Positions 18,664 through 48,838 of a DNA stretch of 64,000 bases are shown in pieces (within the stretch, counting starts at the first letter, position 1; each line of letters begins with the position of its first letter). The DNA lies in the NCBI GenBank assembly GCA_013289685.1, contig JABCZL010000004.1, positions 62,001 through 126,000 of the forward strand, given 5' to 3'. Source of the DNA: Acidobacteriota bacterium (lineage in GTDB: Bacteria > Acidobacteriota > Terriglobia > Terriglobales > Acidobacteriaceae). The notes beneath the pieces were generated by a model that saw only the letters and a program-made list of their open reading frames with translations, was not told the DNA's origin and did not search any database. The position numbers and the translations under genes were made by a program.

Positions 18664-18785
18664 CCCTTCGACTTCGCTCAGGGCAGGCTCTGCCGGCTGT
18701 CGCGTGGGCGTCTCGCCCTCGCAGTCGGCGCCACGCCGGGTGCCCCATTTCTCGCGCGTTCTTTGCGCGAGAAGCGGGGATTTTC
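18664..18785. repeat. Composite repeat: core element, GACGCCCACG segment and ATGGGGCACC hairpin
   Basis: Three recognisable pieces are fused. CCCTTCGACTTCGCTCAGGG (18664 on) is the core seen at 27639. GCGTGGGCGTCTCGCC matches, in reverse, the element at 63057-63107. GGGTGCCCCATTTCTCGCGC with its partner TTTGCGCGAGAAGCGGGGA is the right half of the 27639 element, inverted. It forms the 5' leader of the TSUP gene. Confidence 0.75.
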
Positions 18786-27597: not shown

Positions 27598-27705
27598 TAA
27601 CCACTAAGGGCACCCTTCGATTGCGCTCTGTAGAGAATCCCCACCCTTCGGCTTCGCTCAGGGCAGGCTTTCTCGCGCAAAGGACGCGCGAGAAATGGGG
27701 CACCC
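27598..27705. repeat. Dispersed palindromic repeat, intergenic reference copy
   Basis: Starts with TTTAACCACTAAGGGCACCC (degenerate CCACNGAG family). Then at 27639-27705 comes CCCCACCCTTCGGCTTCGCT and onwards to GAAATGGGGCACCC, with the internal hairpin TCTCGCGC ... GCGCGAGA. The 27639-27705 part is nearly identical to 48076-48141 inside tilS. Confidence 0.85.
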
Positions 27706-28055: not shown

Positions 28056-28505
28056 ATGAAGAAGAGCGAACTCAAACAGCAGATTTCCGCAGCCATTCAA
28101 GCCTGTCTTGAGAAGAAGGCCGAAGAACTCAGCATCCTGGAAATGGAAAAAGGGTCGGGAGCGTTTACCGACTACTTTGTGCTGTGTAGCGGGACCAATC
28201 CGCGGCAGGTGCAGGCCATTGCCGACGAAGTGGAACTGCGTCTGAAGGCCGCGGACTTGCGTCCGGCGCATGTCGAAGGCTACAAACAGGCGGAATGGGT
28301 GCTGATCGATTATGTGGACTTCGTGGTCCACGTATTCTCGGAAAAGGCGCGCAAGTTCTACGATCTGGAACGGCTGTGGAAGACGGCCAAGCGGCTGGAA
28401 GTCGGCGATTTGCAGGCCGCGCCGAAGAAGAAAAAAGCGGCAGCGCCTAAGCCGAAAGTGACCAAGGCGGTCGCGCCGAAAAAGAAGAAGAAGGCGAAAG
28501 TCTAA
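28056..28505 (+). CDS. rsfS: Ribosomal silencing factor RsfS
   Basis: RsfS binds ribosomal protein L14 on the 50S subunit and blocks joining of the 30S subunit in starvation. The 149-residue product has the DUF143 domain (about 8-120): KKAEELSILEMEKGSGAFTDYFVLCSGTNPRQVQAIADEVE, HVEGYKQAEWVLIDYVDFVVHVFSEKARKFYDLERLW. The last about 30 residues form a Lys/Ala/Pro tail (KKKKAAAPKPKVTKAVAPKKKKKAKV-like) that is absent from most homologues and resembles the tail on L21 in this window. It lies downstream of nadD as in most bacteria. Confidence 0.95.
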   Translation: MKKSELKQQISAAIQACLEKKAEELSILEMEKGSGAFTDYFVLCSGTNPRQVQAIADEVELRLKAADLRPAHVEGYKQAEWVLIDYVDFVVHVFSEKARKFYDLERLWKTAKRLEVGDLQAAPKKKKAAAPKPKVTKAVAPKKKKKAKV

Positions 28506-28521
28506 CCTCGGGGGCTAAAGA

Positions 28522-28661
28522 GTATGCTGAAAAGCTCAGTTGGTCGAAGAAGAACGACGACGAGGGCTGAAGCCCAGATTAATTTTCGACGGCTTACGCG
28601 GCCCTAAAGGGCCGCTCTTCCACGGTAGCACCGACAAATCCGAGTTTTTCAGCAGACTGTA
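28522..28661. repeat. 140-bp MITE-like element, copy 1
   Basis: Ends are AGTATGCTGAAAAGCTC and the reverse complement of AGTCTGCTGAAAAACTC (15 of 17 matching). Inside are the hairpins GGGCTGAAGCCC and GCGGCCCTAAAGGGCCGC, followed by TCTTCCACG. It has no coding capacity. Confidence 0.9.
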
Positions 28662-28738
28662 AAGCCCTCATCGAGGGCAAGACTTTATCGCAGCACTGAA
28701 AGCGCTGCGCCACCCAAAACCGACGCGGCGGCTGAACG

Positions 28739-28878
28739 GTATGCTGAAAAGCTCAGTTGGTCGAAGAAAAACGACGACGAGGGCTGAAGCCCAGATTAAT
28801 TTTCAACGGCTTACGCGGCCCTAAAGGGCCGCTCTTCCACGATAGCACCGACAAACCCGAGTTTTTCAGCAAACTGTG
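28739..28878. repeat. 140-bp MITE-like element, copy 2
   Basis: Direct repeat of copy 1 at an offset of 217 bases, with only a handful of substitutions across about 140 bp. The 77-bp spacer (28662-28738) holds another hairpin segment (28687-28719) that is shared with the coding sequence of tilS. Confidence 0.9.
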
Positions 28879-28958
28879 AAGCCGGTGTTCATTTTGGAAG
28901 CAGTTTTTGGCGCGGCTGGAAGCCGCGCTTTTTCAGAGCAATGCCCTCCCAAATCTAA

Positions 28959-46984: not shown

Positions 46985-48838
46985 GTGCATTCTCTGGCAC
47001 AGCACGTGCTTGGCCATATTCGGCGGCAGGAACTGCTTGCGGCCGGGGACCGCGTGGGCGTGGCTATTTCTGGCGGGATTGATTCGGTGGCGCTCTTGCG
47101 GGTGCTTTTGGAGTTGCGCCACGAACTCGGGATTGTTCTTTCGGTTGTTCATTTCAATCACAGGCTGCGGGGGGACGAATCGGACGGGGATCAGGAATTC
47201 GTGGCGTGGCTGGCTCGCGAGTTCGATTTGCAACTTCACACCGATAGCGACAATGTGGCGGAGCGGGCGCGCGAGGAAGGTGTGAGCGTCGAGACGGCAG
47301 CGCGCGAGTTGCGGTATGGATTCTTTCGGTATCTTTTGGGCGTGGAGGGCGAGGGGAATTCCTCGGGGGCTGAAGCCCCAGTTCATCGGGGATCCGAGAA
47401 TCGCAGCGCTGAAAGCGCTGCGCCACCCAAAAGCCAGGCATCCAACAGCGGCCCTCAGGGGCTAAAGCCCGATTCCTCTGAGGCGCTTAACGGCACGGCT
47501 AAAGCCGTGCCCTTCCACGAACCGCCTTCGCTTCGCTCGGCCTCGCACCAGCCGAGGACCTCTCATCTGAACAAGATCGTGACCGGGCACACGCTCGACG
47601 ACCAGGCCGAAACTGTGCTTATGCGGATCATTCGCGGGGCGGGGCTGCGGGGGCTGGGCGGGATTCATCCGCGGATTCTGGTGGAGGACGACGACGGAGA
47701 AATTTCTGGTGAGATCGTGCGGCCGCTGCTCGCGGTTCGTCGTCGCGAATTGGAGCGGTATCTCAAGGACATCGGGCAGGGCTGGCGCGAGGATTCGAGC
47801 AATGCTGACGAACGGTTCACACGCAACCGGATCCGCAAGCTCGTCGTTCCGCTGCTGGAGCGGGAGTTTAATCCCGCGGTGGCGGAGAATCTTGCCGAAC
47901 TGGCGGAGATTGCGCGCGGCGAAGAAGATTACTGGGAGAACGAAGTCTCGGGCTGGCTGGGAACCATAGTGCAGTGGTCGCAGCCGGAATGGGCGCGGGC
48001 GGGGTCTAATGCGGAGGGACTCGTTCAGATCGCGGGGCTCGAGAATTCGCGCAGCCTGTCAATTTCCGCCAACACCCCCACCCTTCGACAGGCTCAGGGC
48101 AGGCTTTCTCGCGCAAAGGACGCGCAAGAAATGGGGCACCCAGGAATGAACGATTTGCGCTTGCGAATCGACAACGCTCCCTGGTTGGTGATGAACGCGT
48201 CGGTGTCGCGGATGTGGTTTCTTGGCGAGTCCATCGCCGTGCAGCGCCGGCTGATCAAGGCGATTGGCGAGAATGCTGGGATTCCGCTGGAGTTCAAGCA
48301 CGTGGAAGAGATCCTGCGGGTCGCGGCCGAGGATGGCGCTGGCAAGGGGTTGTCGCTGCCGCTGGGCTGGAAGCTCGCGCTCGAACCCGAGGAGTTGAGA
48401 TTCCTGACTCCCGATTTGCGAGAGTCGGTGCCTCCGCAGGAATACGAGTATGAACTCCCGGTCCCTGGGCGAATCGTGGTTTACGAAGCTGGCTCCGCGA
48501 TCGAAGCGCGGGCCATTCCAGCGGGCGCGGATGCGGGGTATAATCCTGATCACCTTCTGGATGCAGAATCCTTGCCCGGACTTTTAAGGGTGCGGAACTG
48601 GCGTCCCGGCGACCGATTCTGGCCGGCCCATACGAAGTCCCCCAAGAAGATCAAGGAACTGCTGCAGCAACGTCATGTGGCCCAGCCGGAGCGCAAAGCG
48701 TGGCCGGTGATCGTGAGCAGCAACGAGAGCGGCGATGAGATTGTGTGGATGCGTGGGTTTCCGTCGCCAACGAAATACCGGGCGCAGTCGGGGCGGGCGG
48801 CGATCAGGATTGTGGACGAGCCTTTGAACGAAGCTTGA
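46985..48838 (+). CDS. tilS: tRNA(Ile)-lysidine synthase with two repeat-encoded insertions
   Basis: TilS puts lysine on C34 of tRNA-Ile(CAU) so that it reads AUA. The start is GTG. Core motifs: PP-loop VAISGGIDSVALL (SGGxDS at 29-34), VVHFNHRLRGDESDGD (52-69), GHTLDDQAETVLMRIIRGAGLRGLGG (201-226) and NADERFTRNRIR (273-284). The C-terminal region (about 560-610) has LLRVRNWRPGDRFWP and KIKELLQQRHVAQPERKAWPVIV. At 617 residues it is 150 or so longer than usual. About 73 extra residues (122-194) and about 28 extra residues (361-388) are encoded by DNA matching intergenic repeats of this window. tilS is essential in most bacteria, so the inserts are presumably tolerated. Confidence 0.95.
   Translation: MHSLAQHVLGHIRRQELLAAGDRVGVAISGGIDSVALLRVLLELRHELGIVLSVVHFNHRLRGDESDGDQEFVAWLAREFDLQLHTDSDNVAERAREEGVSVETAARELRYGFFRYLLGVEGEGNSSGAEAPVHRGSENRSAESAAPPKSQASNSGPQGLKPDSSEALNGTAKAVPFHEPPSLRSASHQPRTSHLNKIVTGHTLDDQAETVLMRIIRGAGLRGLGGIHPRILVEDDDGEISGEIVRPLLAVRRRELERYLKDIGQGWREDSSNADERFTRNRIRKLVVPLLEREFNPAVAENLAELAEIARGEEDYWENEVSGWLGTIVQWSQPEWARAGSNAEGLVQIAGLENSRSLSISANTPTLRQAQGRLSRAKDAQEMGHPGMNDLRLRIDNAPWLVMNASVSRMWFLGESIAVQRRLIKAIGENAGIPLEFKHVEEILRVAAEDGAGKGLSLPLGWKLALEPEELRFLTPDLRESVPPQEYEYELPVPGRIVVYEAGSAIEARAIPAGADAGYNPDHLLDAESLPGLLRVRNWRPGDRFWPAHTKSPKKIKELLQQRHVAQPERKAWPVIVSSNESGDEIVWMRGFPSPTKYRAQSGRAAIRIVDEPLNEA
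47360..47522. repeat. Hairpin repeats translated within tilS (insert 1)
   Basis: The hairpins GGGGCTGAAGCCCC, GCAGCGCTGAAAGCGCTGC and CACGGCTAAAGCCGTG, the last followed by CCCTTCCACG, have the same grammar as the intergenic elements. Bases 47400-47432 match 28687-28719 at 32 of 33 positions. The reading frame stays open throughout. Confidence 0.9.
48076..48141. repeat. Dispersed palindromic repeat translated within tilS (insert 2)
   Basis: From CCCCACCCTTCG to AATGGGGCACCC, nearly identical to intergenic 27639-27705. Differences are a CAGG variant in the core and one base in the hairpin. It adds about 22-28 residues (TPTLRQAQGRLSRAKDAQ...). Confidence 0.92.

Follow-up and report, generated by a model that had tools for sequence, protein, structure and literature searches.

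In-frame REP doublets in the tilS gene of an acidobacterium and their recurrent gain or loss at one site among related genomes

The tRNA(Ile)-lysidine synthase gene tilS, found in the window (the whole analysed stretch of 64,000 nucleotides from an Acidobacteriaceae genome), carries 73 extra residues in the middle of a conserved domain, which raises the question of where this segment came from and how it came to be kept in frame. The gene (46985-48838) is one uninterrupted open reading frame of 617 amino acids. Its PP-loop domain is split by the insert, and the TilS C-terminal domain is present downstream. In a phmmer comparison with solved structures, residues 8-118 and 197-329 aligned with residues 5-115 and 122-247 of the Geobacillus TilS 3a2k, with 78 residues here against 6 at the equivalent place of the latter. 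The in-frame insert of the original prediction (47348-47566, residues 122-194) was recovered, its reading frame open and the Pfam and NCBIfam TilS domains retained.

Two hairpin doublets inside tilS

The original prediction treated the entire insert as repeat, containing three hairpins of an intergenic type. The hairpins do belong to dispersed repeats, but they number four, arranged in two tandem doublets named AB and CD1 (Table 1), and the repeat-derived part covers about 47358-47521; the rest of the insert region 3' of CD1, 47522-47566, gave no repeat match. In each doublet, a left and a right hairpin enclose a spacer of about 20 nt, which differs between copies. AB is composed of CCTCAGGGGCTRAAGCCC, about 20 variable bases and ATCGCAGCGCTGAAAGCGCTGCGCCACCCAAAA, and CD1 of the left module common to AB, about 20 variable bases and ACGGCACGGCTGAAGCCGTGCCCTTCC; a third right module, CD2, reads GCGGCCCTGAAGGGCCGCTCTTCCAC. 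The left and right hairpins of a doublet are thus different sequences, and the same left module is combined with several kinds of right module. The right hairpin bore a GTGG head (CCAC at the 3' side on the plus strand) in 14 of 15 AB and 8 of 16 CD copies, the left module having CCTC instead. Among these 15 AB and 16 CD copies from the own genome the hairpins were conserved and the spacers similar in length, with varying sequence.

Table 1. Positions of tilS, its repeat-derived parts and related elements in the window and elsewhere in the own genome.
Feature	Position	Strand	Description and evidence
tilS, tRNA(Ile)-lysidine synthase	46985..48838	+	617 codons, GTG start; PF01171 and PF11734 (Pfam), TilS_N and TilS_C (NCBIfam), PDB TilS chains 3a2k, 1wy5, 1ni5
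Insert region, residues 122-194	47348..47566	+	Lies after helix LRYGFF and before strand IVTGHTLDDQ; other genera have about 15 residues here (aligned relatives)
AB REP doublet	47358..47437	+	Translated SSGAEAPVHRGSENRSAESAAPPK; nhmmer profile built from 14 further copies of the own genome, E 2e-18; element alignment
Left hairpin of AB	47366..47379	+	GGGGCTGAAGCCCC; read from sequence
Right hairpin of AB	47402..47422	+	CGCAGCGCT-GAA-AGCGCTGCG, then CCAC (read as a GTGG head on the opposite strand)
CD1 REP doublet	47451..47521	+	Translated PQGLKPDSSEALNGTAKAVPFH; nhmmer profile built from 15 further copies of the own genome, E 4e-20
Left hairpin of CD1	47458..47470	+	GGGGCTAAAGCCC
Right hairpin of CD1	47491..47512	+	GGCACGGCTAAAGCCGTGCC
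Second, different dispersed hairpin repeat in tilS	48076..48141	+	In frame, residues about 364-386, PTLRQAQGRLSRAKDAQEMGHP
AB copy outside tilS, matched in the original prediction	28648..28724	+	nhmmer
Array of mixed hairpin modules (AB, CD2, others) outside tilS	28500..28940	.	Read from sequence; nhmmer matches 28648-28724 and 28868-28936
Copy of the second-site repeat outside tilS	27639..27705	+	92.5% identity over 67 bases
In-frame AB doublet in rlmN	L124 (G000:C2:252694-252766)		
In-frame doublets in mutY, priA, hpnE	L002, L114, L130		priA and hpnE in opposite orientation

The 219-base segment had at least 42 own-genome matches at E ≤ 1e-3, itself included, a lower bound obtained with 40 of the 142 first-look candidates scored; pieces of 32-35 bases reached 100% identity. 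With at least 41 further matches, the segment is far from confined to tilS, and the claim that a dispersed hairpin repeat had entered the gene with the frame kept and the domains intact was supported. The reported 33-base match between 47400-47432 and 28687-28719, with one difference, was confirmed as well; it can be lengthened to 40 bases with 90% identity. No open reading frame with at least 30 codons on both sides spans the element at 28648-28724.

Profiles built without the tilS copies recovered both tilS doublets (Table 1). In the own-genome sequence examined there were 42 distinct AB or CD copies (E ≤ 1e-3; 44 rows, two pairs being the same place), and 20 spread stretches (400 kb) by themselves included five copies. 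As in REPs, the elements are short palindromes with many dispersed copies, and they are mostly extragenic: six of the 42 lie in genes with recognised domains (two in tilS and one each in mutY, rlmN, priA and hpnE), which is not a genome-wide rate, the copies having been fetched largely for matching the insert.

The RNA fold of 47355-47525 reached -75 kcal/mol (z -3.6), and none of 200 dinucleotide shuffles was equally stable. No Rfam family matched the insert segment. The sole Rfam match of the window was an Acido-Lenti-1 RNA at 942-987 (score 47 bits, gathering score 37). Since the frame is open and conserved domains stand on both sides, the insert is probably translated. It would form a flexible loop close to neutral. 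The AlphaFold model of TilS (mean pLDDT 63.9, pTM 0.35) was low in confidence at residues 123-191 and likewise at the conserved residues 203-252 and 268-322, and it was set aside as loop evidence because of these low values in conserved parts.

Beyond the original prediction, tilS holds a second repeat-derived stretch at about 48076-48141. The segment 48070-48145 had 43 own-genome matches, itself included, several of them 66-67 bp copies at 93%, and a further window copy lies at 18738-18773. This repeat was found at the equivalent place of tilS in the relatives L011, L015, L017 and L018.

The tilS site among relatives and doublets in other genes

The genus, which falls among soil Acidobacteria, was represented by 45 genomes, including Candidatus Sulfotelmatobacter and Acidobacteriaceae MAGs, of which 42 had a TilS match and 39 an intact site. 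The TilS of G009 and G012 (fragments), L018 (without the site) and L053 were left out, the last being an additional, divergent TilS whose loop is short (G043:C393), found beside the typical copy of the same genome, either a duplicate or contamination. For the outgroup, 142 genomes of other genera were searched and 22 loci returned, 16 of them measurable and six not fitting the motif pattern.

The segment from LRY to GHT ranged from 20 to 143 residues (median 50) in the 39 genus genomes and from 14 to 30 in the 16 measurable loci of other genera. The aligned relatives share no common conserved domain here, and a conserved TilS domain is ruled out by the varying length and content. An assembly chimera is likewise ruled out by the 38 further genus genomes, separately assembled, many of them with inserts at the same site and with varied contents.

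AB, CD1 or CD2 was present at the site in 24 of the 39 genomes in changing combinations, and none of them in the remaining 15. By profile, AB was found in 13 rows and CD1 in 14, and CD2 was assigned to ten rows by eye from peptide words. Besides the 24 rows, L026 and L049 retained the right half of AB alone. The extra residues in relatives are the same translated words, put together in varying ways. The near relative L031 (73% identical) has CD1 and the common 3' flank without AB, and AB was therefore regarded as a separate event. Also sister rows differ: L010 has CD1 and L016 AB, and L024 has AB with CD1 and L048 AB. In L048 (G003:C254), tilS is broken into two frames 3' of the insert, possibly by an assembly error.

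On a TilS tree constructed without both variable sites, where changes are gains plus losses together, AB required 11 changes against a mean of 11.5 with shuffled labels, and nine of these were forced by supported branches; the figures were 12 changes, mean 12.0 and nine forced for CD1, and eight changes, mean 9.2 and seven forced for CD2. Given the 11 gains or losses of AB with nine forced, the tilS loop looks like a recurrent insertion hotspot, apparently genus-wide.

All 15 AB-profile and 15 CD-profile matches in the genus tilS genes were on the coding strand. Thirteen of the AB matches were in one frame, the other two overlapping CD-type elements, and 14 of the 15 CD matches were in one frame, with L051 as the exception. 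In copies outside tilS the frame used was stop-free in 9 of 14 (AB) and 11 of 15 (CD), and the other frames in 1-8 of 14 and 1-6 of 15, respectively, counts that are approximate as they were made from the extracted copy start. Because the used frame is most often stop-free elsewhere, part of the frame bias in tilS is expected without selection on the peptide; the remainder may stem from ancestry, target preference or selection.

TilS is one among several genes hit by doublets, which the original prediction had not covered. Of the six in-gene copies in the own genome, four share the strand of their gene (two in tilS, one each in mutY and rlmN), and those in priA and hpnE are on the opposite strand. 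The mutY doublet sits within the NUDIX domain, and in mutY and rlmN the AB right hairpin is read in another frame than in tilS. In rlmN, too, the AB doublet recurs in frame across the genus, and some relatives have different repeats there: among 30 loci (L182-L211), 29 with the motif, 11 had the AB word KRCATQ and one SAESAAPPK, and others were short. When the relatives' genes were searched for CD1 doublets, in the tilS frame only, such doublets turned up inside MoaA of two genomes, in the domain of an ATP-dependent DNA ligase, and between the domains of a SIS-CBS protein and of a PurL-like protein.

Several candidates were not counted. In the esterase frame on L111 the element lies, by eye, upstream of a plausible start; in the long frames L004, L006, L121, L131-L135, L140, L149, L153 and L155-L157, which came from a peptide search, it is at the extreme start or end. 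In L136, L150 and L151 it is ahead of the recognised domains, and these may be in-gene cases. The frames of L118, L003, L123 and L112 span an element and matched no Pfam family.

A candidate mover and the explanations weighed

Four PF01797 genes were found in the own genome. With the NCBIfam model of REP-associated tyrosine transposases (RAYT; REP_Tyr_transpos, cut-off 80), the Y1 gene on C26 scored 115.6 bits, that on C20 84.5 and that on C3 71.1, below the cut-off, while the gene on C9 matched the NCBIfam IS200-like model (56.8 against 55). The C26 gene is flanked by inverted full doublets (score 39; maximum of 500 shuffles 20), and the alignment of the reverse-complemented upstream flank with the downstream flank begins with CGGTACC and ends with the CD2 right hairpin and CTTCCAC. 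A RAYT gene of the relative G001 (104.2 bits) is bracketed alike (score 44, shuffle maximum 16), its downstream doublet being CD1-like. The arrangement expected of a RAYT, a Y1 gene between inverted repeat copies, is thus present in C26 and G001. No inverted repeats were found in the flanks of the C3 gene (score 9, 257 of 500 shuffles as high), and the C9 and C20 genes are bracketed by other hairpin families. The 3' ends of two RAYT frames, L042 1303-1818 (G000:C26) and L142 701-1285 (G001:C33), run into the downstream doublet, which encodes their last residues. As the C26 gene is bracketed by inverted doublets of the same architecture, this RAYT is proposed as the probable mover of the tilS doublets.

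We consider it quite likely that two RAYT-linked REP doublets transposed into a tolerant loop of tilS, and that doublets have been recurrently gained, lost and restocked there within the genus. Observed are the identity of the repeats, the preservation of the reading frame, gain or loss recurring across relatives, and a RAYT gene bracketed by inverted doublets. A Y1-type transposase would recognise the hairpins in single-stranded DNA and copy or move the doublet, and AB and CD1 would have been transposed successively into a solvent-exposed loop. Most landings in genes would be lost, and those that keep the frame and are free of stops would survive in a tolerant loop as flexible extra peptide. 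Such a tolerant site would be the loop of TilS that joins the LRYxFF helix to the GHTxDDQ strand, with doublets gained, lost and restocked many times. Counting against this explanation, the changes on the tree mix gains and losses, so that fewer gains with many losses are possible, and no target site is defined. Furthermore, the Y1 gene on C3 lacks inverted flanks and those on C9 and C20 are flanked by other families, and the single strand and near-single frame in tilS are not predicted by a purely neutral, orientation-blind model on its own.

Uniform orientation and frame throughout would also follow from a single old insertion of an AB+CD1 composite at the base of the genus, eroded lineage by lineage and kept similar by gene conversion, and the AB-then-CD1 order indeed recurs in L009, L024, L028 and L029, with CD1-AB-CD1 in L019. 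This is unlikely, as the early-branching L033, L035 and L046 have 20-22 residues and no repeat, AB and CD1 are scattered on the tree like shuffled labels (11 against 11.5 and 12 against 12.0), CD2 right hairpins occupy the site in other rows, and L031 has CD1 with the common 3' flank but no AB. Selection for the inserts, with the peptide or the mRNA hairpins altering TilS activity, tRNA contact or expression and both tilS and rlmN keeping them, appears very improbable. It would fit the recurrence in two RNA-modification genes, and the uniform orientation in tilS with a single frame for each family, set against the opposite orientation in priA and hpnE and the other frame of the AB right hairpin in mutY and rlmN. 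Against it, 15 of the 39 genus genomes have none of the three elements at the site, contents differ between sister rows, spacers are unconserved, and part of the bias is explained by the used frame being the one most often stop-free outside tilS (AB 9/14, CD 11/15).

Building on the preferred explanation of recurrent RAYT-linked transposition, a more speculative and rather doubtful extension is that doublets borne by RAYTs are a recurring source of new protein segments, with tilS and rlmN as standing landing pads and modular peptides swapped quickly between species. Its basis might, equally tentatively, lie in stop-poor frames of the doublets combined with a bias towards particular loops in enzymes of RNA modification and repair. 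Across dozens of related genomes, a single loop of one conserved enzyme holds anywhere from zero to three mobile doublets, and the tilS inserts are tied to a candidate mover within their own genome. With this natural series it can be asked how frequently a selfish repeat turns into protein sequence, at what pace such repeats are replaced, and whether the orientation and frame bias stems from the transposase or from selection.

Comparison with known palindromic elements

Rickettsia palindromic elements are palindromic repeats inserted in frame in essential genes, with the peptide translated. To our knowledge they are not RAYT-linked. The original prediction had likened the tilS insert to them, and the analogy holds for the in-frame insertion in conserved genes (here tilS, mutY, rlmN, priA and hpnE) with host domains kept, but not for the type of element, which looks like a RAYT-linked REP doublet rather than anything particularly Rickettsia-like. 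The Rickettsia elements, which are mentioned in PMC3733652 too, are also longer, about 150 bp (PMC10969869).

A closer likeness is with intragenic REPs. According to Di Nocera and colleagues (2013, PMC3733652), these occur in open reading frames as single units or dimers adding 20-30 residues, with clusters of up to 82, mainly in O. terrae, R. conorii, Xanthomonas, Stenotrophomonas and others, and are GTAG or CGTC tagged. Their targets include repair and RNA-modification genes, and in two Xanthomonas species recB was hit at roughly the same position; for Koribacter (Acidobacteria) the parts consulted give only TIR-flanked transposases and one TIR family. Short palindromic repeats inside reading frames, with doublets in repair and RNA-modification genes, are common to both; here the host is Sulfotelmatobacter, the left tag is another one, and one gene is recurrently hit genus-wide. 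In our limited literature search, which implies no priority, nothing was found on palindromic repeats in Sulfotelmatobacter.

According to Bertels and Rainey (2011, PMC3116915), the ends of a REPIN are inverted copies of one 16-mer and the elements are extragenic. The doublets share with REPINs two conserved hairpin ends, a spacer conserved in length, a RAYT nearby and several families per genome, and differ in that the left and right hairpins are unlike, one left goes with several rights, and some copies are intragenic. The RAYT of Nunvar (2010, PMC2817692) is a Y1 transposase gene between two inverted hairpin repeats, with a GT(A/G)G head on the REPs. The inverted flanking hairpins and the GTGG head on the right hairpin (14/15 AB, 8/16 CD) agree with this, whereas the two RAYT genes here run at their 3' ends into the downstream doublet. 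In-frame intragenic REPs, REP doublets and RAYTs with inverted REPs are thus already known, and the tilS insert is a case of that kind; new to us are the lineage, the modular doublet with one left and several right hairpins, and a single tilS loop that is occupied time and again across the genus.
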